Positions 6,715 to 17,149 of a stretch of 53,731 nucleotides of DNA are shown piece after piece. A program made the position numbers and the translations under genes. The notes under the pieces are model-generated. The model worked only from the letters and a program-made list of their open reading frames with translations. It made no database searches and was not told where the DNA came from. This DNA is from Comamonadaceae bacterium (lineage in GTDB: Bacteria > Pseudomonadota > Gammaproteobacteria > Burkholderiales > Burkholderiaceae_C): positions 1 through 53,731 of the forward strand of contig CANCLK010000013.1 of the NCBI GenBank assembly GCA_947378785.1, written 5' to 3'. Each line of letters opens with the position of its first letter. Within the stretch, counting starts at the first letter, position 1.

Positions 6715-7653
6715 TCAGCCAGAAAACTTTTCGCGAAGTTCGGCAACATAAGCGGGGGCAGGATGCAACGTCATGCTAGGTCCTGCCTTGGCCACTTGAC
6801 CGGGCACGTCGTGGCCCACGATCGTCGGCATCTCGCGGGCGACTTGCAGCAATCGTTCCAGCACCATGCCGGTGTCGTAGCCCATGGCGTCAAGCATGTG
6901 AACCGCGTCTTCGCTGCAGACATTGCCGCTGGCGCCGGGTGCATACGGGCAGCCACCGAGTCCACCCAGGGAGCCGTCAAAACGCTCAATACCGGCCTGC
7001 ACTGCCGCCAACATATTGGCCAGCCCCATGCCGCGCGTGTTGTGAAAATGCAGGGTGAGTTGCTGCGTCAGTTTGGCTTGCAAAGCCTCCACCAAGCGGC
7101 TCACCTGCCCCGGATGGGCCATACCCGTGGTGTCGCAAATGGTCAACCCACGCACCCCTAAGTCAGCGAAGCGCTGCGCCCACTGCAACACCTCATGCTG
7201 CGTCACCTCGCCCTCCATCGGGCAACCAAAGGCGCAGGACAAAGACACATTGATGGGGGTCTGGCCGTCAACCCGCTGGATGACTTCTGTCAACGCCGCA
7301 AAACTGTGTTCGCGGGGCATTCGCAGATTGGCCAAGTTGTGCGTCTCAGACACCGACATCACCAGATTGAGTTCGTCGGCACGCGACTCCAGCGCCCGCT
7401 CGGCACCGCGTAAGTTCGGCACCAGCACGGTGTATTCAACACCCGACGCGCGCTGGATGCGGCCCATCACTTCCTCCGCATCACGCAACATCGGAATCGC
7501 CTTGGGCGAGGTGAAAGAGGTCACCTCGATCTTGGCGTAGCCGCACTCGCTCAGCGCGTCGATCAAAGCGATCTTGCTGTCGGTTGGCACAAATTCAGGC
7601 TCGATTTGAAAGCCATCGCGTGTCGACACTTCGTTGAAGTAAATACGTTTCAT
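6715..7653 (-). CDS. Hydroxymethylglutaryl-CoA lyase family protein
   Basis: A 312-residue DRE-TIM metallolyase. It has catalytic Arg-Asp at 12-13 (TRDGFQ), metal-binding HFHN (202-205) and the HMG-CoA lyase signature GGLGGCPYAPGASGN (230-244), whose Cys235 corresponds to the catalytic Cys266 of the human enzyme. The family splits 3-hydroxy-3-methylglutaryl-CoA into acetyl-CoA and acetoacetate, and some bacterial members cleave related 3-hydroxy-acyl-CoAs such as citramalyl-CoA. The start overlaps the CoA-transferase stop as ATGA, so the pair is probably translationally coupled and works in sequence: CoA activation followed by cleavage. Confidence 0.9.
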   Translation of the reverse strand: MKRIYFNEVSTRDGFQIEPEFVPTDSKIALIDALSECGYAKIEVTSFTSPKAIPMLRDAEEVMGRIQRASGVEYTVLVPNLRGAERALESRADELNLVMSVSETHNLANLRMPREHSFAALTEVIQRVDGQTPINVSLSCAFGCPMEGEVTQHEVLQWAQRFADLGVRGLTICDTTGMAHPGQVSRLVEALQAKLTQQLTLHFHNTRGMGLANMLAAVQAGIERFDGSLGGLGGCPYAPGASGNVCSEDAVHMLDAMGYDTGMVLERLLQVAREMPTIVGHDVPGQVAKAGPSMTLHPAPAYVAELREKFSG

Positions 7654-8882
7654 TTTTCAGATCCTTCAACAATGCCGCGGTCATACAAGGCTTGAATTTG
7701 CGCGGGGGTCAAACCCACTTCACGCAACACAGCCAGGGTATCTTGCCCGGCGTTGGGCGCGTTGCGGCGGTGCGAGCCAGGCGTGCGCGAGAGCTTCGGC
7801 ACAATACCGGGCACGGCCAGCGTGCTGCCATCGTCCATCTGCACCTGCTGGATCATGCCTCGGGCTTGGTAATGCGGATCGGCAGCGATGTCCGCCACCG
7901 TGTAAATTTTGCCGGCGGGCACGGACGCAGCGTCAAGCGCCGCGAGGACTTCGTCAACGCTGTGCGTCGCCGTCCATTGACCAATGGCGGCGTCGAGTTC
8001 CGTCACGCGGAGAACCCGCCCGGTGTTGTCGGCCAGCGTGGGATCGGCGCCCAGATCAGCGCGGCCAATCACCGTCATCAGCCGCTTGAAAATGCTGTCG
8101 CCGTTGCCGGCGACCAAGGCATAAGCGCCGTCCTTGCACAGGTAAGCGTTGCTGGGCGCGATGCCTGGCAGCGCGCTACCAGCCGGCCCACGCACGGCGC
8201 CAAAGGCGCTGTATTCGGGCAGCAGGCTTTCCATGCAATTGAACACCGCCTCATACAGCGCGACGTCGATCACCTGACCCTCGCCGGTCTTGGCGCGGTG
8301 TTGCAGTGCCACCAAAATTCCGATCACACCGTGCAGCGCGGCCAGCGTGTCGCCAATACTGACACCGACGCGCACCGGCACGTGGTCGGGTTCAGCCGTC
8401 AAGTGGCGCAGTCCACCCATGGCCTCGGCCACCACGCCGAAGCCGGGGCGGTCGCGGTACGGTCCGGTTTGCCCGTAGCCACTGATGCGCAGCATGATCA
8501 GACCGGGGTTGAGTTGGTGCAAATCGTCAGGGCCGAGACCCCAAGCCTCCATCGCACCCGGCCGAAAATTTTCGATCACCACATCACACTCAGCCGCCAG
8601 TGAGCGAACAATGTCTTGCGCCTCGGGCTGTCGCAGATCAAGCGCGACCGAGCGTTTGTTGCGCGACTGCACCTGCCACCAGACGGAGGTGCCGTCCTTC
8701 AGCAAGCGCCATTTGCGCAGCGGATCGCCAGCGCCCAGGGTTTCGATCTTGATGACGTCGGCACCGAAATCCCCGAGTGTCTTGGCCGCAAAAGGGCCGG
8801 CGATCAACTGGCCGAGTTCGAGGACTTTGAGGCCACTCAGGGCAGCGGTGCCGAGGGCGGTGGGTGATGAGGTAATAGACAT
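7650..8882 (-). CDS. CaiB/BaiF family (class III) CoA-transferase
   Basis: A 410-residue class III CoA-transferase. It begins with LSGLKVLELGQLIAGPFAAKTLGDFGADVIKIE and carries SRNKRSVALDL, and the catalytic Asp is most likely D178 in the SIGDTLAALHG segment. These enzymes move CoA between carboxylic acids (formyl-CoA:oxalate, succinyl-CoA:citramalate, carnitine and others). Directly coupled to an HMG-CoA-lyase-type gene, it probably activates the acid that the lyase then cleaves. Succinyl-CoA:citramalate or itaconate CoA-transferase are reasonable candidates, but the sequence alone does not decide. Confidence 0.9.
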   Translation of the reverse strand: MSITSSPTALGTAALSGLKVLELGQLIAGPFAAKTLGDFGADVIKIETLGAGDPLRKWRLLKDGTSVWWQVQSRNKRSVALDLRQPEAQDIVRSLAAECDVVIENFRPGAMEAWGLGPDDLHQLNPGLIMLRISGYGQTGPYRDRPGFGVVAEAMGGLRHLTAEPDHVPVRVGVSIGDTLAALHGVIGILVALQHRAKTGEGQVIDVALYEAVFNCMESLLPEYSAFGAVRGPAGSALPGIAPSNAYLCKDGAYALVAGNGDSIFKRLMTVIGRADLGADPTLADNTGRVLRVTELDAAIGQWTATHSVDEVLAALDAASVPAGKIYTVADIAADPHYQARGMIQQVQMDDGSTLAVPGIVPKLSRTPGSHRRNAPNAGQDTLAVLREVGLTPAQIQALYDRGIVEGSEK

Positions 8883-8916: not shown

Positions 8917-9882
8917 CTATTGCTTCTTGCTGCGCGGAGCTTTCGCCTTTTGCGAAGCCTTGAAGCGCGTAGGCCCGACGTCGGCCAGAAAACGCACGAA
9001 ATCCAAAATCCCCGGATCCGCTTCGCCCACCCGCGTCGCGACTATCATGCGGCGCTGCGCCCAGCCATCGGCGAGAGGCCGGCTGACGAGCTTCATGGAT
9101 TGCATGATCGGCAAGGCCGCCGCTTTGGGCAAGATGGCAATGCCCAAACCCGAGGCCACCAAGTGGCAGACCGCGTCGAAGCTTCGCACCTGCATGCGCA
9201 GCTTCAATGGCATGCCGGCGGCCTGCGCCGTTTGCTGCTGCCGCATCAACATGGCCGCACCGGTGTTGAGGCCGATGTAGTCTTCCGCCAAGGTGTCCGC
9301 GAAGTCGATGGGGCTGCGCGCCTTCGCCAAGCGATGCCGCGCTGGCAGCACCAGTACCAATTCGTCATGTGCAAAAAGCTGCATGTCGAGGCCATCAACG
9401 TCCGGGCCTTCCACCCAAATACCAACGTCTGCCCTGCCGTCGCGCAGCGAAGCGACCACCACCTCCGACACTTGCTCCTCAAGGTCAATGCGAACTTGCG
9501 GCTTGGCCACGCTGTACGTGGCGAGCAGCGGCGGCAAGAACTGACTGATGGCGGCGGTGCTGGCCCACAAACGAATATGCCGCGCCACGCCTTGCTGCAA
9601 GTCGCTCAGTTCAGCGCCCAGCAAACCCATTTGCTGGAGCAAGACGAGACCATGTTTGGCAAATATTTTGCCGGCGGGTGTGGCCGTCAAGCCGCGTGCA
9701 TGACGCTCAAACAAAGGCCCGCCTAGGGCGGTTTCCAGATCGCGAATGCGCCGGCTCGCTGCGGCCAAAGCCAAATGCGAGTCACGCGCCGCGGCAGTCA
9801 GGCTGCCGGTGCGCGCGCAGGCCACCGCCAGTTGGATCGACACCATGTCGAAGCGGGCTAGGTTGTAGGGATGGGTTGTCAC
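8917..9882 (-). CDS. LysR family transcriptional regulator
   Basis: A 321-residue LysR-type regulator. The N-terminal winged helix-turn-helix covers about residues 12-70 (VSIQLAVACARTGSLTAAARDS, then ASRRIRDLETALGGPLFERHARG). A periplasmic-binding-protein-like effector domain follows, and the tail is basic. It lies 34 bases upstream of the CoA-transferase gene on the same strand, so it heads that operon, and its start is divergent from the Bug-hydrolase-bioMNY operon. It could control both directions from the 80-base spacer, where a TATC-N11-GATA dyad is visible. The effector is probably an acid or acyl-CoA of the pathway. Confidence 0.9.
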   Translation of the reverse strand: MTTHPYNLARFDMVSIQLAVACARTGSLTAAARDSHLALAAASRRIRDLETALGGPLFERHARGLTATPAGKIFAKHGLVLLQQMGLLGAELSDLQQGVARHIRLWASTAAISQFLPPLLATYSVAKPQVRIDLEEQVSEVVVASLRDGRADVGIWVEGPDVDGLDMQLFAHDELVLVLPARHRLAKARSPIDFADTLAEDYIGLNTGAAMLMRQQQTAQAAGMPLKLRMQVRSFDAVCHLVASGLGIAILPKAAALPIMQSMKLVSRPLADGWAQRRMIVATRVGEADPGILDFVRFLADVGPTRFKASQKAKAPRSKKQ

Positions 9883-9926
9883 AAAATTTGAGTTTTGGGC
9901 ATTATCCCTGCCGCCATCCCCGGGTC

Positions 9927-9945
9927 TATCGAAACCGCCCTGATA
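9927..9945. promoter_or_regulatory. Candidate LysR-type operator (TATC-N11-GATA dyad)
   Basis: A perfect four-base dyad, TATC-N11-GATA, in the 80-base spacer between the divergent lysR (start 9882) and Bug (start 9963) genes. Spacing and symmetry suit a LysR-type recognition site, but the arms are short and no second copy was seen. Confidence 0.35.
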
Positions 9946-9962
9946 CGATCGACGCCACCGAT

Positions 9963-10958
9963 ATGACCGTTACTGACTCCCCCAAAACCTCCATGCTAAG
10001 ACGCCAACTCATTGCCGCAGCGGGGTGCTGCGCACTGGCGCCCAGCCTTTCACTGAGCGCCAGCTTTCCATCCAAGCCGATCAAAGTCATTGTTCCGTTT
10101 CCTGCCGGCGGCGGAACCGATGTTCTGGCCAGAGCTATCGGCCAGCGAATGAGCGCCTTGCTTGGCCAGCCCGTGATCGTGGACAACAAGCCGGGAGCCA
10201 ACGGTGTCATTGGGGCAGATGCGATTGCCAAGTCAGAAGCAGATGGTCACAGCCTGCTGCTGACCATTGCATCTCACGCCATCGCACCGGCCATCTACAA
10301 AAAATTACCGTACAGCACAGATTCAGATTTCGTCAGCGTCTCGCTGATTGCCAAATACCCTTATCTCTTCACGGTGCCCGCGAGCTTGCCGGTCAACACG
10401 TTTCAGGAATTTATCGCCTACGTCAAGGCGCACCCGGGGAAGTTGAGCTACGCATCGTCTGGCACTGGCAGCGGGCCCCACTTGGGCATGGAGCTTCTCA
10501 ACACCCTGACAGGCATGGATTTGATGCACGTACCCTACAAAGGCGCCGCACCCGCCAACAATGATCTTGCCGGAGGCCAAGTGCACGCCATGCTCAACAA
10601 CCTGCTGGCGGCAGCACCCATGATTCGGTCCAACAGAATCAAAGTGCTGGCGGTCACGAGTGCCCACCGATCTAAAGCGCTGCCAGCGGTCCCCACGGTA
10701 GCCGAGTCGGGATATCCGAGCTACGAGGTGGACGGTTGGTATGGTCTGTTTGCGCCAGCCAAAACCCCCGACACCGCCGTAGCGCTGCTGGCGGACTCGG
10801 TTACCAAGGCGCTGAAGGTACCCGAGGTCTTGAGCAGGTTAAGTGGCGACGGTGCCATTCCAGTCGGTAGCAGTCCCAAAGAGTTCTTCGATTTTTTTAA
10901 AGTCGAAAAAATCAAATGGGCCGCCGTGGCCCACAAAGCAAACGTGACGGTTGATTGA
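9963..10958 (+). CDS. Bug-family (TctC) periplasmic solute-binding protein heading a bioMNY operon
   Basis: A 331-residue Bug receptor. A signal peptide runs from MLRRQLIAAAG to about LSLSAS, followed by FPSKPIKVIVPFPAGGGTDVLARAIGQ and the later YASSGTGSGPHLGMELL and HVPYKGAAPANNDLAGG blocks. The ATG at 9963 gives a ten-residue extension; the ATG at 9993 would give a more typical signal peptide. One base separates its stop from the next ATG, and the run continues through bioMNY, so it is very probably co-transcribed with biotin uptake genes. Family members bind carboxylates, including C6 dicarboxylates in some bacteria. A dicarboxylate such as pimelate is a possible ligand here, but that is inference. 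Confidence 0.9.
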   Translation: MTVTDSPKTSMLRRQLIAAAGCCALAPSLSLSASFPSKPIKVIVPFPAGGGTDVLARAIGQRMSALLGQPVIVDNKPGANGVIGADAIAKSEADGHSLLLTIASHAIAPAIYKKLPYSTDSDFVSVSLIAKYPYLFTVPASLPVNTFQEFIAYVKAHPGKLSYASSGTGSGPHLGMELLNTLTGMDLMHVPYKGAAPANNDLAGGQVHAMLNNLLAAAPMIRSNRIKVLAVTSAHRSKALPAVPTVAESGYPSYEVDGWYGLFAPAKTPDTAVALLADSVTKALKVPEVLSRLSGDGAIPVGSSPKEFFDFFKVEKIKWAAVAHKANVTVD

Positions 10959-10959
10959 G

Positions 10960-11793
10960 ATGCCCTATTTTTCAAGCGCGCAGGGACTGCGAATCCACTA
11001 CCAGATTGACGACTTCAATGACCCTTGGCGGGATCGACCGTATTTGATTCTCCAGCACGGCAACGGACGCAGTGGAGATTTTTGGTACCGCTGGATTCCC
11101 ACGCTGGCGACACACTTCAAAGTCATCAGGCCGGACATGCGGGGTGTTGGCCGATCAGACGCGGTGACCGATGTGAACGGCCAGATTTCGCTGAATGCCT
11201 GTGTCGAGGACTTGGTCGGCCTGATCGACAGCCTCACTGACCAGCCGGTGTATTTCTGCGGAGAGTCCATGGGCGGCATATTGGGGATCCTTTTAGCGGC
11301 CATGTACCCCGCGAAGGTCCGTGCGTTGGCGTTGGTGGCCACACCGGCGTTCATCAACGAGGCCATGAAATCCCGCTACGCGCTTGGCTACGCGTCCAGG
11401 TTAGAAGCGATGCGGGCCATGGGCATCGAAAAGTGGGTGCGAGAGACCAGCGTGCTGACGAGATTCCCACCCGACTGCGACCCAGCCCTGATTGACTGGT
11501 ATGTCAACGAATTCGCCAAAGGCGTTCCCGAGGTACTGGTCCGCTATGCGGAGCTGGTCAGCTCAGCCAGTGCTGTTGACTATCTGCCTAAAATCAAATG
11601 TCCGACCTTGGCGCTATTCCCAAAGAATGGGCAGATCACGGATGACGCGCAGGTCAATCTGTTTCGCCAGCATCTGAACAAGGTTGACGTGCGTTACGTT
11701 GACAGTGAGTTCCACATGATCCACCTGACGCATGCGCTCGAATGTGCAGCAGCGGTTCGAGAATTCTTAGGGCAAGCTGAGTTGGCAGGCTGA
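10960..11793 (+). CDS. Alpha/beta-hydrolase in the bioMNY operon
   Basis: A 277-residue alpha/beta-hydrolase. HGNGRSG (33-39) forms the oxyanion loop, the nucleophile is S103 in CGESMGG, and the catalytic His is H252 or H255 in the EFHMIHLTH segment. Its overall layout resembles 3-oxoadipate enol-lactonase and BioH-like esterases, but it is not specific enough to name. It starts one base after the Bug receptor and ends 18 bases before bioM. In a biotin-uptake operon an esterase or amidase could release biotin or a pimelate-type acid from a conjugate; that is a hypothesis. The longer frame beginning with TTG at 10951 is less likely. Confidence 0.87.
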   Translation: MPYFSSAQGLRIHYQIDDFNDPWRDRPYLILQHGNGRSGDFWYRWIPTLATHFKVIRPDMRGVGRSDAVTDVNGQISLNACVEDLVGLIDSLTDQPVYFCGESMGGILGILLAAMYPAKVRALALVATPAFINEAMKSRYALGYASRLEAMRAMGIEKWVRETSVLTRFPPDCDPALIDWYVNEFAKGVPEVLVRYAELVSSASAVDYLPKIKCPTLALFPKNGQITDDAQVNLFRQHLNKVDVRYVDSEFHMIHLTHALECAAAVREFLGQAELAG

Positions 11794-11811
11794 GCACCCA
11801 CAAAAGATCCG

Positions 11812-12552
11812 ATGTCCGACGCCATGAGTCCTTTAGCCCCGTGCCCGATCCACATGGATCAAGTGCGTCTGGTACGCGGCACGACGACCGTCTTTGACGG
11901 CTTGACGCTGCGGTTGAACGAGTCACGCATCGGCTTGATTGGCGACAACGGCGCGGGCAAAAGCAGTCTCTTCAGGCTCATTTGCGGTCTGGACAAACCA
12001 GCGTCTGGAAGCGTTTCGGTCTGGGGCCAAGACGCACAAAGCAGAACCGCCGAGCGTGCTGGACGGGTCGGCATGATGTTCCAGAATCCGGACGACCAGA
12101 TCATCTTTCCGACCGTTGAGGAAGAACTCGCGTTAAGCCTCAGCCCGAACGGACTGCCCCGCAAGGTCAACTGCCAGCAAGCCCGAGAAGTGCTGACAGC
12201 ACGCGGTTTGGGGCACTGGGCTGAGCGTGCCATTGGCAGCCTCAGCCAAGGACAACGGCAGCATGTGTGCTGGCTCGCTTTGATGATCGCGTCACCCCGA
12301 TCCGTGCTGCTTGACGAGCCTTTTTCAAGCTTGGATCTGCCGGGGCGGACCATGCTCGACGTGGAAATTTTGAAGGCCAGCCAGCAAGTCATTGTGTCCA
12401 CGCATTTACTTAACCACGTGCGGGGTTTTGAGCGAGTGATCTGGCTTGACAAAGGCCAAGTCCGTGCAGATGGCAACGGCGCAAGCGTGTGTGCTGCTTA
12501 CGAAGCCGACGTGGCGGCACGTTGCCAGTCACAGCACTTGAACATCGGCTAA
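11812..12552 (+). CDS. bioM: Biotin ECF transporter ATPase BioM
   Basis: A 246-residue ABC ATPase with Walker A GDNGAGKS (44-51), Q-loop Q91, signature LSQGQ (144-148), Walker B VLLDE (165-169), D-loop and switch His in STHLL. It belongs to the CbiO/EcfA branch. With BioN and BioY immediately downstream it forms the energy-coupling module of the group I ECF biotin transporter, as described in Rhodobacter and other proteobacteria. The ECF gene order M-N-Y and spacings of 10 and 47 bases confirm the assignment. An in-frame second ATG at 11824 is an alternative start. Confidence 0.92.
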   Translation: MSDAMSPLAPCPIHMDQVRLVRGTTTVFDGLTLRLNESRIGLIGDNGAGKSSLFRLICGLDKPASGSVSVWGQDAQSRTAERAGRVGMMFQNPDDQIIFPTVEEELALSLSPNGLPRKVNCQQAREVLTARGLGHWAERAIGSLSQGQRQHVCWLALMIASPRSVLLDEPFSSLDLPGRTMLDVEILKASQQVIVSTHLLNHVRGFERVIWLDKGQVRADGNGASVCAAYEADVAARCQSQHLNIG

Positions 12553-12562
12553 AGATATTCGC

Positions 12563-13156
12563 ATGGGCAGTTTTTACAGCGACCACCGCACCTGGCTGCA
12601 TGCAGTTTCAGCATCCCTGAAACTGATTCTGCTGGCCATCTTTGGCACGGCCCTGTTCGTGTTCGACAACACTGTGGCGTTGCTTGCTTGCACTGCGCTG
12701 TGCCTGCTGTTTTTCGCATCATTGGGTCGGGCCACGCTACCGGCGCGAAAACTGCTCACCATGGTTGTTGCGGCCGGGCTGCTGATCACCGCATTTCACG
12801 CCTACCTGCAACAACCCCTGCTGGGCTTGGTCAGCGCGCTGCGTTTGCTGAGTGCCTCTCTACTGGGTATCGCGCTGATGCTGACGACCCGCGCCAACGA
12901 TCAGCTGGATGTCCTCGAAAGCTGGCTGTCACCGCTCAATCGTTTGGGCATCCGATCCAATGCGTTAGCCTTGCAATTGGCGTTGATGCTTCGCTTCACC
13001 GAGCATTTTTTCATTCAGTGGAAGCGTCTCGATGATGCGCACCGCGTGCGGACCGGAAAATCGGGCGGCTTCAAACTGTTGGCGCCCCTGACCATCCGCA
13101 TGCTGACGTCGGCTCAGCGGGTCGCAGATGCGCTCGATCTCCGGCTCCCGCCTTGA
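12563..13156 (+). CDS. bioN: Biotin ECF transporter transmembrane coupling protein BioN
   Basis: The EcfT-type transmembrane protein of the biotin transporter, 197 residues. Four hydrophobic segments are visible between about residues 13 and 110. A cytoplasmic region follows with the coupling helices, recognisable by DDAHRVRTG and the terminal QRVADALDLRLPP, the counterpart of the Ala-Arg motifs that dock on the ATPase. It is shorter than non-biotin EcfT proteins, as is usual for BioN. It starts ten bases after bioM and is followed by bioY after 47 bases. Confidence 0.92.
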   Translation: MGSFYSDHRTWLHAVSASLKLILLAIFGTALFVFDNTVALLACTALCLLFFASLGRATLPARKLLTMVVAAGLLITAFHAYLQQPLLGLVSALRLLSASLLGIALMLTTRANDQLDVLESWLSPLNRLGIRSNALALQLALMLRFTEHFFIQWKRLDDAHRVRTGKSGGFKLLAPLTIRMLTSAQRVADALDLRLPP

Positions 13157-13203
13157 GTCGGTCAATCCACTGCCTCCACACTCTTAACAACTTCATCACT
13201 TAA

Positions 13204-13779
13204 ATGACCTCCTCTCGTTCCAGCGGACTCGCCTACGTCTCTCTCTTCGCCGCCCTGGTGGCCGTTTTTGGTTTGATTCCCAAAATTGATTTGCCTTTGG
13301 GCGTGCCCATCACGCTGCAAACATTGGGCGTCATGCTGGCGGGCTGCATGCTTGGCCCCAAGAAAGCGCTACAGGCGCTGCTGCTGTTTCTGGCAGCCGT
13401 TGCTTTGGGTTTGCCCCTGCTGTCGGGCGGACGCGGCGGCTTGGGCGTGTTTGTCGCACCAGCCAGCGGTTACCTAATTGGCTTTCCCATAGGCGCTTTA
13501 GCCACGGGTCTGCTGATGGCCTATTTACCCGTCAGCTCGCCACGCCGAGCGGCGGTCAGCGCCTTTGTCGCCTCAGCTGTCGGTGGCGTCCTCACGATTC
13601 ACATCTGCGGTGTGATCGGCTTGGTCGCGCTGGCCAAGCTGAGTTGGACGCAAGCACTCTGGGGCACCTTGGTGTTTGTTCCGGGCGACTTGATCAAGTG
13701 TGTTTTGTGCGCCATCGTGGTTCACTCGGTGGCTCGCGGCTTGCCGGATTGGCGATTTGGTGGCAGAGCGTTTCGATAA
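13204..13779 (+). CDS. bioY: Biotin transporter substrate-binding subunit BioY
   Basis: The S-component that binds biotin within the membrane, 191 residues with about six hydrophobic segments. It carries the BioY hallmarks GVPITLQTLGVMLAG, LGPKKALQALLLFL, GLPLLSGGRGGLGV and APASGYLIGFP. Together with BioM and BioN it makes a complete biotin importer. The ligase gene that follows starts inside its 3' end, so the two are probably coupled. No BirA- or BioR-like operator was found in the spacer before it or before the operon. Confidence 0.95.
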   Translation: MTSSRSSGLAYVSLFAALVAVFGLIPKIDLPLGVPITLQTLGVMLAGCMLGPKKALQALLLFLAAVALGLPLLSGGRGGLGVFVAPASGYLIGFPIGALATGLLMAYLPVSSPRRAAVSAFVASAVGGVLTIHICGVIGLVALAKLSWTQALWGTLVFVPGDLIKCVLCAIVVHSVARGLPDWRFGGRAFR

Positions 13780-15244
13780 ATCAGATCCGCTGACGGATCT
13801 GGTCCACGCGCCACTGGCGCACTGGGCCAGCGTGCGCGGTGATGCCGTGGCCATCAGTGACAACCGAAACAGCCTGACGTTTACCGAGCTGAACGCGGCA
13901 GTGCAGCAACGGGCGGCAGCCCTGACTCAGGCGCAAGCACCGGCCACGGTTTTGGTCGACGACAGCGCGACATCCATCCATCAAGTGCTGGAGTTTCTGG
14001 CCATCATCAGCAGCGGTCGTTGTGCAGCCATGGCGGATCCGGATTGGCCTGCCGCCTTACGCGAGACGATGCGCGAGCAGATCAACCAACTGCCCTCTGT
14101 TCCGTCTACGCGGGCGGAACTTCAACCCACTTCGCCTTTTTACATTGGCTTCACCTCCGGCAGCACGGGCATGCCCAAAGGCTTCAGACGCCACCACCGC
14201 TCTTGGACCGAGAGTTTTCGGGTCTGCGTCGAAACGTTTGGGGCCGACGCGGCCAGAGGCATCTTGTCGCCCGGTCGCAGTTCGCACTCCTTGTTTTTGT
14301 TCGGCATGTTGCTGGGCATTTGGACTGGCGCAGGCGTCGTGGTCCAAGAACAATTTTCTGCATCGCGCACCTTGGACACTTTGCGACAAGGCCACACGCC
14401 GTGCCTGATCGCCGTGCCGAGCCAGCTGATCTTGATGATCGAGCTGGCGGCAAGGCATGGCATCGCCCCGATTGAGGCGACGCGCTTGATCATGATCAGC
14501 GGCGCACGCTGGGCTCGCCATCGGACCGCCGAGTTGCAAGCGCTATTCCCCAAAGCCCGCATCATTGAGTTCTACGGCGCCTCAGAAACCAGCTTCATCG
14601 CCTGGATGGACGCCGATATGACCACGCCGCCCCAGGTCGTCGGTCGGCCCTTTGGCAACGTCGAGATCGACATCCGGGACGCTTCAGCGGCCGGTGGTCC
14701 AGGCTTGATATTTGTGCGTAGCCCCATGCTCTTCATGGACTACATGGGTGCTGAAGCAGACGCCACGGCGGCCATCCGCGATGGCGACTGGCTGTCGGTG
14801 CGGGACATGGGCCACCTAGACGCGCAAGGCCGGCTGTGCCTGGCTGGCAGGCAAAACCGAATGATCACCACGCAAGGGAAAAACCTGTTTCCGGAGGAAT
14901 TGGAATCAGTCTTGTGCGCGCACCCCGGCATCGCTAAAGCGTCGGTGCAGGGCGTGGCAGATGCCTTGCGCGGCATGAGGGTCGTCGCGGTCGTGCAGCT
15001 AGCCTCTGGCTATGCAGGTGAACTTCATGCGGCCGAACTTTCCGTCTGGTGCCGAGAGAAGCTTGAAGCGTACAAAGCACCCAAGCGCTGCTTTGTGTGT
15101 GATGACTGGCCGCTGACGGCCAGCGGCAAGACGGATCACGCCACGCTGGCGCTGCTCTTGCAAAATCATCTCAGGGACAAAGAGAACAAGCACACCAACC
15201 CGGACACGCCATGTCACACGCCGAGACTTTCCCCGCTGCTTTGA
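13760..15244 (+). CDS. Class I adenylate-forming acyl-CoA ligase in the biotin operon
   Basis: An AMP-dependent acyl-CoA synthetase. It shows P-loop FTSGSTGMPKG (131-141 if started at the GTG of 13760), FYGASE, the hinge region GRQNRMITTQGKNLFPEELE and the catalytic lysine motif SGKTDH near the C-terminus. GTG at 13760 gives 494 residues and a 20-base overlap with bioY; an ATG at 13700 would overlap by 80 bases. The last 34 bases overlap the thiolase gene. The bioY-ligase-thiolase trio matches the Bacillus subtilis yhfU-yhfT-yhfS gene set, which is part of the biotin regulon. The acyl substrate is unknown; pimelate or a fatty acid is plausible. Confidence 0.88.
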   Translation: MAERFDKSDPLTDLVHAPLAHWASVRGDAVAISDNRNSLTFTELNAAVQQRAAALTQAQAPATVLVDDSATSIHQVLEFLAIISSGRCAAMADPDWPAALRETMREQINQLPSVPSTRAELQPTSPFYIGFTSGSTGMPKGFRRHHRSWTESFRVCVETFGADAARGILSPGRSSHSLFLFGMLLGIWTGAGVVVQEQFSASRTLDTLRQGHTPCLIAVPSQLILMIELAARHGIAPIEATRLIMISGARWARHRTAELQALFPKARIIEFYGASETSFIAWMDADMTTPPQVVGRPFGNVEIDIRDASAAGGPGLIFVRSPMLFMDYMGAEADATAAIRDGDWLSVRDMGHLDAQGRLCLAGRQNRMITTQGKNLFPEELESVLCAHPGIAKASVQGVADALRGMRVVAVVQLASGYAGELHAAELSVWCREKLEAYKAPKRCFVCDDWPLTASGKTDHATLALLLQNHLRDKENKHTNPDTPCHTPRLSPLL

Positions 15245-16395
15245 TCGCTGGCTGGGCGCGCAGCGCTGTCGCTCCACACGGTGGCGCTTTGGGTGCGCTG
15301 CAAGCGCATGACATCGCCGCGCCAGTGATTCAAACCTTGCTGAAACGCGCTGGCATCGCGCCTGAAAAAGTAGATGCGGTGGTTGTCGGCAATGCCTTGG
15401 GCGCGGGCGGAAATCCAGCGCGCCTGGTGGCCTTAGCGGCAGGCTTACCGGATCAATGTTCGGCATTTTCAATCGACACCCAGTGTTGCTCGGGACTTGA
15501 TGCGGTGTCGATGGCAGTCGGGCTGATCGCATCGGGTCAAGCCTCGGTGGTCATCGCGGGTGGAGTCGAGGCCTGGAGCCGATCGCCCATTCGGCAACAT
15601 CGCCCATTACGCGAAGGCGAAGCAGCCGTGCCCTATGAACGGCCCGCGTTTGCACCTGATCCAGCCCGTGACCCGGACATGCTGGCGTCTGCCGCGCGCT
15701 ATGCCGCGACGCACGGCTGGACACGCACAGAGCAGGACGCTTATGCGGTGCTGAGCCACGAACGCGCCTTGGCGCATCAAGCGTTGTTAGCGGATGAAAT
15801 CGTCAGCGTCGCCGGCTTGGCGCACGACTCGTATCCGCGGCGCATCAGCGACGCACTGGCCGCGCGCATGCCCACTGTGGCGACGCACGAGGATGCAGAG
15901 CGCGCAGAAGCCGATCCTCTGGACTGCTCGCTCAGCGCATTGAGCATTTCAGCCAAAGCCGATGGAGCGGGCTTCGTGCTGCTGGCCAGTCCAGAGGCTT
16001 GCCAAGCACTGGGGCTGAAGCCCAAGGCAGCTTGGATCGCCTCGGCCTCGGTTGGCTGCCCGCCTGAAACACCCTTGCTTGCAGCAGAGGTCGCAGCGTG
16101 CGCCGTGTTGTCGCGGGCCGGTTTGGCATCCGCCGACGCGCTGGCTGTGATTGAACTGCACGATGCCTTTGCGGTGCAAGGTTTGAGCTTTTGCCAAACC
16201 CTGAGCATTGATCCGCGGCGGGTGAATCGCGGTGGTGGCGGTTTGGCGCGGGGCCACCCGATTGGTGCGTCAGCCGCCATTGCTCTGGTGCGCGTGCTGG
16301 CTGAGTTGGCCCTTGAGACACCATCGGCATTTGGACTGACCGCTGTTGCCGGCGCGGGCGGTCTGGGTGCGGCCGCGATTGTGCAGCGGCTCTAG
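15211..16395 (+). CDS. Thiolase-family protein (YhfS-like) with altered second catalytic Cys
   Basis: A 394-residue thiolase-fold protein. The acyl-accepting cysteine is C92 (DTQCCSG) and the active-site His lies in GGGGLARGHPIGAS. The usual NEAFA is HDAFA, as in SCP-2-type thiolases. At the C-terminus, where biosynthetic and degradative thiolases have CxGGGxG, this protein has AGAGGLG, so the second catalytic Cys is an Ala. It may have altered or no condensing activity. It ends the bioMNY operon and converges on the nitroreductase gene with a four-base gap. The ligase-thiolase pairing suggests a CoA-ester step linked to biotin metabolism. Confidence 0.88.
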   Translation: MSHAETFPAALIAGWARSAVAPHGGALGALQAHDIAAPVIQTLLKRAGIAPEKVDAVVVGNALGAGGNPARLVALAAGLPDQCSAFSIDTQCCSGLDAVSMAVGLIASGQASVVIAGGVEAWSRSPIRQHRPLREGEAAVPYERPAFAPDPARDPDMLASAARYAATHGWTRTEQDAYAVLSHERALAHQALLADEIVSVAGLAHDSYPRRISDALAARMPTVATHEDAERAEADPLDCSLSALSISAKADGAGFVLLASPEACQALGLKPKAAWIASASVGCPPETPLLAAEVAACAVLSRAGLASADALAVIELHDAFAVQGLSFCQTLSIDPRRVNRGGGGLARGHPIGASAAIALVRVLAELALETPSAFGLTAVAGAGGLGAAAIVQRL

Positions 16396-16399
16396 GCAG

Positions 16400-17083
16400 C
16401 TAGTCGATCACCCGGAAATACTGATCCAGAGAACAACGCTCTGTCACGGTTTGATTCACCGCAGCGTCTCCATCGGCATAACCAAGGGCGATGCCACAGA
16501 CGATTTTCGAGCGCTCGTCCAAGCCCAAACTCCGACGAATCAACCCAGGATAAGACGCCATGGCCCCAATCGCACAGGTCGCCAAACCTTGCGACTGGGC
16601 GGCCAGCATCAAGCCGTACAGCGTCATGCCGAAATCCATGTAGCCGCCGCTGCCGAAGTCGCCATGGATGGTGGCGATCAACGCCACGGGGGCATCAAAA
16701 AAGCGGAAGTTCTGCTCAAACTGCTGATCCCGACCAGCCCGGTCTGCCTGGGCAACCCCGATGGAGCCGTACAGGGCTTTTGCAGCCGCTACTTGACGAC
16801 GCCTGAGCGTCATCGGCAGCGGCGTCGGGAAATAGCTGTAGTCCTCGGGCTCTTGAGCGCCACTGCGCCAGCCTTGGGTGAGGTCGGCAGTCAGCCGCTC
16901 TCTAGCTTCGCCGCGCACCAAGATGAATGAACCCGGCTGCAGGTTGGCGCCGCTCGGTGCATTACGGGCCTGCGTCAAAACCTCACCCAACAAGCTGTCA
17001 GCCACAGGCTTGGTTTGGTACGCCCGAATCGAACGACGCGCCATCGCGAGACTGGTAAACGAATCAGGTGGAGGTGCGGTCAC
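16400..17083 (-). CDS. Nitroreductase family protein
   Basis: An FMN-dependent nitroreductase-fold protein of about 227 residues. The N-terminal MARRSIRAYQTKPV and PSGANLQPGSF segments bind FMN, the central YGSIGV and FRFFDAPVALI segments line the pocket, and the C-terminal region has VCGIALGYAD. Such enzymes reduce nitro groups, quinones or flavins with NAD(P)H; the true substrate is unknown. GTG at 17083 is preferred over a TTG at 17095; the ATG of MARRSI would lose only a short leader. It is followed on the same strand, upstream, by the DUF3014 gene after about 65 bases. Confidence 0.85.
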   Translation of the reverse strand: MTAPPPDSFTSLAMARRSIRAYQTKPVADSLLGEVLTQARNAPSGANLQPGSFILVRGEARERLTADLTQGWRSGAQEPEDYSYFPTPLPMTLRRRQVAAAKALYGSIGVAQADRAGRDQQFEQNFRFFDAPVALIATIHGDFGSGGYMDFGMTLYGLMLAAQSQGLATCAIGAMASYPGLIRRSLGLDERSKIVCGIALGYADGDAAVNQTVTERCSLDQYFRVID

Positions 17084-17149
17084 AACGAATCTCAAAAAAG
17101 AAAAGCCGACTGATCAGCCGACGCACACGAACGCATGCGGTACTCGATT

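Follow-up and report, generated by a model that had tools for sequence, protein, structure and literature searches.

A biotin-uptake operon of a Comamonadaceae bacterium that probably joins a conserved core to a separate receptor-hydrolase pair

Seven genes stand in close order on the plus strand of a 53,731-nucleotide stretch (hereafter the window; contig C13 of genome G000) from a Comamonadaceae bacterium: a periplasmic receptor of the Bug (TctC) family, an alpha/beta-hydrolase, the biotin transporter genes bioM, bioN and bioY, an acyl-coenzyme A (CoA) ligase and a thiolase-like gene. Does this run encode one route for scavenging biotin-related compounds, as a sequence-only reading had proposed, or does it combine parts with different tasks? 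We examined its components in a ‘genus’ sample of 87 genomes and a ‘family’ sample of 399 genomes (the groups of the genome search). The run is probably a composite operon, with a core for biotin-vitamer uptake and, ahead of it, a separate Bug-hydrolase pair that would act on an acid or lactone in another pathway. We favor this reading because the core is conserved while the pair is not.

The seven genes have the order and spacing that had been described for them, with Pfam and NCBIfam agreeing with their names (Table 1). Gaps of 1 base (Bug to hydrolase), 18 (hydrolase to bioM), 10 (bioM to bioN) and 47 (bioN to bioY) are followed by two overlaps, one of 20 bases between bioY and the GTG start of the ligase and one of 34 bases between ligase and thiolase. 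An in-frame ATG at position 9993 of the Bug gene matches the Bug start at locus L140 of another genus. The genes for T component and ATPase lie in one run with bioY, and BioY matches the solved BioY structure 4DVE in the PDB at E 2.4e-21, with no other PDB match under E 0.3. Pfam matches likewise bear out the proposal that a biotin transporter of the BioMNY type precedes ligase and thiolase genes. The host genome is 3.1 Mb in size, 85% complete and 6.5% contaminated, and the closest named contigs belong to metagenome-assembled genomes of Comamonadaceae, one of them labelled Polaromonas.

BioY scored above cut-off in 44 of the 399 family genomes, and weak matches raised the number of BioY places to 51, of which we fetched 47 (all except the window itself and the three weakest, in G394, G129 and G032). 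Ligase and thiolase, sought on the bioY strand within 3 kb and 4.5 kb, respectively, accompany bioY in 31 of these 47 places and by coordinates lie just downstream of it. Both bioM and bioN were found within 2.5 kb in 29 of the 31, the other two being L082 and L085. A nitroreductase homolog lies within 7 kb in 29 of the 31 as well (17 on the same strand, 12 on the opposite one), and at L070, one of the two places without it, the contig ends about 600 bases past the thiolase gene. None of 15 other places with a BioY hit but without ligase-thiolase has the nitroreductase, and the sixteenth place outside the 31 (L099) gave no match to any of 12 window proteins. Close thiolase homologs (E ≤ 1e-85) occur in 33 family genomes, all with BioY except G068, so that the 399 genomes divide into 32 with both, 12 with BioY only, one with the thiolase only and 354 with neither (Fisher p = 3.7e-36, a value overstated by the relatedness of the genomes). 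The bioM-bioN-bioY-ligase-thiolase-like set is a conserved module that recurs far beyond chance.

The Bug-hydrolase pair is distributed very differently from this core. The closest relatives of the window are represented by loci L032 to L039 (genomes G463, G470, G465, G469, G450, G468, G471 and G467, respectively, each counted once). The pair is present whole beside bioM in the window and in three (G463, G467 and G468) of the seven relatives with readable upstream DNA. It is absent from G450, G465, G469 and G470, in which the gap between the LysR-type regulator gene and bioM could be read; in G471, Bug is visible before the contig ends. The gap in G450 (L036, 7168-7969) holds instead a gene for a HigB-like toxin (PF05015, 62.8 bits) and a helix-turn-helix gene (PF01381, 22.8 bits, just under the cut-off of 23). 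At E ≤ 1e-40 the hydrolase occurs in only 4 of the 87 genus genomes, all four with BioY, which itself is found in 11 of the 87. At E ≤ 1e-35 it occurs in 5 of the 399 family genomes, namely the window's own, G130 and G221 (93% identity) and G055 and G254 (33-34%), and it was found at none of the 47 fetched family BioY places. Conservation of receptor and hydrolase next to bioMNY in relatives, which one shared route would lead one to expect, therefore failed to appear, and this patchy occurrence speaks against the pair as a regular part of bioMNY operons. Some other Bug lies close to family BioY genes at L055 (41%, divergent from bioM) and L084 (35%), so a Bug gene near bioY is not remarkable in itself.

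Where does the pair otherwise occur? In G130 and G221, members of a different genus, the pair is 90-94% identical to that of the window's clade and has no bioMNY beside it; neither genome gave a BioY match. There it ends a run (L140, 9073-15681; L141, 2610-10586) that includes an SMP-30/gluconolactonase-like gene (PF08450), a GntR regulator, a second Bug, a PfkB kinase resembling 2-keto-3-deoxygluconate kinases (191 of 400 bits) and a zinc-dependent dehydrogenase resembling L-idonate 5-dehydrogenase (358 of 469 bits). The G221 run also contains a GDSL hydrolase gene, with a mandelate-racemase/muconate-type gene nearby; the G130 stretch was covered short of its far end. Judged from these genes, whose NCBIfam names fall under cut-off, the run appears to be of a sugar-acid type. 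The window's hydrolase comes closest to PcaD-type models but scores far under their cut-offs (TIGR02427, PcaD, 90.7 of 255.85 bits), and reaches 49.7 of 206.95 bits against the BioH model TIGR01738; these scores speak against both BioH and PcaD as its identity. For the Bug protein, receptors for different acids match about equally among the nearest solved structures. No TctA or TctB membrane partner was present among the 12 window genes scanned (6.7-18 kb), the rest of the genome not having been searched.

The site of the pair can be compared between carriers and non-carriers. The sequence just ahead of Bug, some 80 bases long, corresponds to the initial portion of the LysR-bioM spacer in G465, G469 and G470, in which this shared block is followed by 43-54 more bases and then bioM; in the four carriers Bug follows the block directly, and the hydrolase stop codon lies 18 bases before bioM. 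Whichever promoter drove bioM probably drives the pair as well, and this arrangement suggests that pair and bioMNY probably share a transcript, although functional unity of the two is unsupported. A promoter scan returned two sites against 1.4 expected, no more than chance, and did not pinpoint the promoter of the block. Among k-mers counted upstream of 29 family loci, the promoter-like word TAGAAT occurs in 16 and CAACTTCG-like words occur upstream of bioM in five (L062, L066, L069, L073 and L077); these are possible promoter and regulator sites, respectively, but the k-mer counts gave no clear regulator site among the 29 loci.

Two explanations would give the pair a partner at this locus. 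In one, all seven genes serve a single route: an acid related to biotin, or a conjugate, is bound by Bug, released by the hydrolase and then handled further by ligase and thiolase, while biotin is imported alongside. The co-directional genes with their short gaps and overlaps agree with this, as do the retention of the pair beside bioM in four genomes and the presence of BioY in all four hydrolase-bearing genus genomes. The orphan Bug receptor AdpC, moreover, binds acids from adipate to azelate (from part of PMC5812351), and the window's Bug matches its structure 5OEI at E 5e-61. Among the PDB matches seen, however, BugE (2DVZ), a terephthalate receptor and Bug27 all outscore 5OEI. The pair is lacking in four of nine close-clade genomes and only partly visible in a fifth, the 47 fetched family BioY places lack the hydrolase, and in G130 and G221 the pair belongs to a different gene run, which undercuts the proposal that it extends biotin uptake into one scavenging route; nor is there a bioF above cut-off to make use of pimelate. 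We consider a single seven-gene route very unlikely. In the other explanation the pair is no foreign element and belongs to the divergent operon of LysR, CaiB-type CoA-transferase and HMG-CoA-lyase-like (HMGL) genes. Regulators of the LysR type often control genes on both flanks, the one here is separated by 80 bases from the Bug gene that it faces, and the pair adjoins this operon in all four clade genomes that show it whole, as Bug does in G471. The LysR-CaiB-HMGL genes lie upstream of bioM on the opposite strand in all eight readable clade genomes (window included), and on a separate contig from bioM in G471. CaiB matches (E ≤ 1e-150) occur in 63 of the 87 genus genomes, and 12 of 17 fetched genus loci having CaiB without bioMNY beside it carry the three genes together. 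Eleven of these 12 loci, however, have a different Bug downstream (31-39% identity) and in one the contig ends, none has the hydrolase at E ≤ 1e-40, and G130 and G221 have the pair without LysR-CaiB-HMGL genes in the 13-20 kb read. Membership of the pair in the LysR operon is thus unlikely.

If the core imports a biotin vitamer, what does the host make for itself? We looked for bioB, bioF and bioD in 70 selected genomes and tallied matches above cut-off by hand, with controls that were hand-picked rather than random. None of the three genes had a match above cut-off in the window's own genome (an assembly 85% complete), and among the 10 other BioY-bearing members of the genus they were above cut-off only in G471, whereas all five BioY-less members examined have all three. 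From this gene content the host is likely a biotin auxotroph. The 31 family genomes with ligase-thiolase comprise five with all three genes, 18 with bioB only and eight with none, so that bioF and bioD lack a match above cut-off in 26 of 31; in two of the 31, G142 and G355, bioF scored 263-269 bits and thus fell short of its cut-off of 426. Of the BioY-bearing family genomes without ligase-thiolase, 3 of 11 have bioD, and among 12 BioY-less family genomes outside the genus, six have bioD, three have bioF above cut-off and three more have it just below.

These counts bear on two claims about pimelate. One is the earlier suggestion that pimelate is captured at this locus, and the other is that biotin synthesis draws its pimeloyl-CoA from the ligase and the thiolase-like enzyme, which the situation in Staphylococcus aureus might encourage, since yhfT-yhfS and bioY are there BirA-controlled from separate promoters and adjoin the synthesis operon (according to excerpts of PMC6391492 and PMC7235819). 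Because bioF, the consumer of pimeloyl thioesters, has no match above cut-off here and in 26 of 31 carriers, both capture and activation of pimelate are unlikely; in this family ligase and thiolase stay with BioY where bioF has gone, and most carriers lack anything that would use pimeloyl-CoA. We accordingly set pimelate activation by the ligase low, and hold supply of pimeloyl-CoA for biotin synthesis to be highly improbable.

Several observations weigh against the composite reading or against parts of it. On the side of biotin, the genus member G471 has bioD, bioF and bioB together (G471:C22, 8911-11849), on a contig that is either genuine or foreign; it is BioY in general, rather than ligase-thiolase in particular, that accompanies the loss of bioF and bioD; and with the window's genome 85% complete, each absence alone is weak. 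On the side of the pair, the patchy distribution suggests that it probably arrived by transfer, but carriers do not group in the core-gene tree, so that an ancient pair may instead have been lost several times within the clade, and a useful connection with biotin uptake would then be conceivable. We used CysM, a single gene, as a yardstick of divergence (a PilT-like gene of L140 was dropped, having been found at E ≤ 1e-120 in G130 alone). Mean synonymous divergences from the clade to g130 and within the clade were 0.77 and 0.32 for Bug, 0.91 and 0.36 for the hydrolase and 1.58 and 0.52 for CysM, so that the ratios of 2.4, 2.5 and 3.0 give no sign of recent transfer. The low synonymous divergence of the pair (Bug 0.72-0.84, hydrolase 0.76-1.06, against 1.20-1.92 for CysM) was rejected as such a sign by this within-clade control, CysM simply being faster. 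Ratios for amino-acid-changing divergence were 1.8 for Bug, 1.8 for the hydrolase and 6.6 for CysM, a difference that constraint could also explain, and one yardstick decides little on transfer of the pair. Because two gene trees disagree, with unsettled nodes in the core-gene tree (bootstrap 52-97, FastTree local support 0.97-1.00), gain and loss of the pair cannot be ordered.

Within the composite reading, the conserved enzyme pair of the core calls for an explanation of its own. The ligase and thiolase gave their best equivalog-type NCBIfam hits to NF005797 (294 of 518 bits) and NF005212 (201 of 498 bits), models that we take to stand for Bacillus YhfT and YhfS. The likeness of bioY-ligase-thiolase to Bacillus yhfU-yhfT-yhfS that had been drawn from the sequence thus holds as far as these are the best hits of their type, but both remain under cut-off. 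A literature search yielded no description of the module with a nitroreductase and no demonstrated function for YhfT or YhfS; the core module belongs to an established type, though its enzyme pair lacks an explanation. In an alignment of 43 thiolase sequences (window, 11 nearest loci and 31 family loci, one sequence being cut off), the nucleophilic Cys of the CxS motif and the Cys after it are invariant (43/43), the NEAF motif is replaced by HDAF (40/43) or HEAF (3/43), and the His of the GHP motif is kept in all 42 sequences that extend there. The cysteine of the CxG motif (Cys378 of Z. ramigera) is Ala in all 42 with sequence at that place, whereas the PDB thiolases 8jg3 and 4wyr, aligned to place the residues clearly, have it. 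In the alignment, neither of the two positions known to carry the second catalytic cysteine holds a Cys. Its Cys-His-His set presumably resembles that of malonyl-using condensing enzymes. The adenylation motifs of the ligase are intact in 43 sequences.

Two roles for these enzymes can be weighed. One is a biotin-sparing acyl metabolism, in which, under a shortage of biotin that leaves acetyl-CoA carboxylase weak, the two enzymes would activate acyl chains and lengthen them without malonyl-CoA. It would account for the association with BioY, and for control tied to biotin in S. aureus, with no need for a biotin-like substrate, and it suits the intact ligase motifs. The CxG cysteine that the thiolase lacks is, however, the base in condensation (in part of PMC3406046), and L082 and L085, where neither bioM nor bioN was found within 2.5 kb, still keep the enzyme pair beside bioY, which points to the substrate of the S component; we find biotin-sparing metabolism possible but rather doubtful. 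The other role is that, once shortened biotin vitamers (bisnorbiotin, for example) have entered through BioMNY, ligase, thiolase-like enzyme with its Cys-His-His set and nitroreductase would rebuild their side chains, a tentative proposal that we rate as quite unlikely. Among proteins of the thiolase fold, altered motifs can go along with a different chemistry (as excerpts of PMC12329534 describe).

On the composite reading, then, the substrate of BioMNY would be biotin, joined perhaps by desthiobiotin in those relatives that retain bioB. The ligase may couple CoA to a small acid, whether related to biotin or not, and the resulting ester may then have its carbon chain altered by the thiolase-like enzyme. 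Bug and hydrolase would be a separate uptake-and-hydrolysis pair for an acid or lactone, perhaps with a sugar-acid role, which in some members of the clade lies between the LysR-facing block and bioM, probably as a result of transfer.

Each part of the run has likenesses among known systems. As in the Rhodobacter capsulatus type of BioMNY, the genes for the A, T and S components lie together and the S component is of the BioY family (part of PMC3246461); the window differs in the ligase and thiolase-like genes that follow and, in a few strains, in the Bug-hydrolase pair that precedes. BirA-regulated genes of B. subtilis and S. aureus likewise place BioY, an acyl-CoA ligase and a thiolase-family protein in one regulon (excerpts of PMC6391492, PMC7235819 and PMC11089781), but unlike yhfT-yhfS the window genes are joined to bioMN, have a nitroreductase nearby and do not reach the NCBIfam cut-offs. 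Bacteria with bioB only are able to grow on desthiobiotin (portions of PMC9561691), and the 18 of 31 family carriers with bioB but no bioF or bioD above cut-off resemble them, whereas the window's clade mostly lacks bioB too; the main text of that paper mentions neither thiolase nor acyl-CoA. Orphan Bug/TctC receptors are abundant in Comamonadaceae, for example in Acidovorax and Variovorax (part of PMC5812351), and the window's Bug is alike in family and in having no membrane partner among the neighboring genes scanned, but is paired with a hydrolase. SCP2-thiolases share with the window's thiolase the change from NEAF to HD-F and the missing CxG cysteine, and may use instead the Cys of HDCF (excerpts of PMC7682436), where the window family has HDAF or HEAF.

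Table 1. Features of the seven-gene run and its neighbors (window coordinates)
Feature	Coordinates	Strand	Matches and remarks
HMG-CoA-lyase-like gene, same operon as CaiB	6715..7653	-	PF00682 152.8 bits; NF004283 above cut-off
CaiB-type CoA-transferase, separate operon	7650..8882	-	PF02515 422.6 bits
LysR-type regulator	8917..9882	-	PF00126/PF03466; heads divergent CoA-transferase/HMGL-like operon, faces seven-gene run
Intergenic block, presumed divergent promoters	9883..9962	.	Matching block precedes bioM in relatives without Bug-hydrolase
Bug (TctC-family) periplasmic receptor	9963..10958	+	PF03401 249 bits (cut-off 27); first of extra pair
Alpha/beta-hydrolase	10960..11793	+	Abhydrolase_1 PF00561 87 bits; second of extra pair
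bioM, energy-coupling factor (ECF) transporter ATPase	11812..12552	+	ABC_tran PF00005 85.1 bits
bioN, ECF transmembrane coupling protein, CbiQ family	12563..13156	+	PF02361 45.5 bits
bioY, biotin-specific S component	13204..13779	+	PF02632 125 bits (cut-off 25)
Adenylate-forming CoA ligase (YhfT-like)	13760..15244	+	AMP-binding PF00501/PF13193 above cut-off; NF005797 294 bits (cut-off 518)
Thiolase-superfamily protein (YhfS-like), no CxG catalytic Cys	15211..16395	+	Thiolase_N/C PF00108/PF02803
Nitroreductase-family gene	16400..17095	-	PF00881; frequent neighbor of module

In the neighboring operon, the best NCBIfam hit of the CaiB-type transferase is succinate-glutarate CoA-transferase, under cut-off.

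These results weaken a tempting functional reading of the operon and show how two genes with a task of their own can lie between a pre-existing intergenic block and a transporter operon. They sharpen the question to the role of the ligase and thiolase that travel with BioY, one that can be addressed with a small set of biotin analogs. If the side chains of shortened vitamers were indeed rebuilt by these enzymes, this would be a salvage pathway for biotin vitamers, in addition to de novo synthesis and the use of desthiobiotin.

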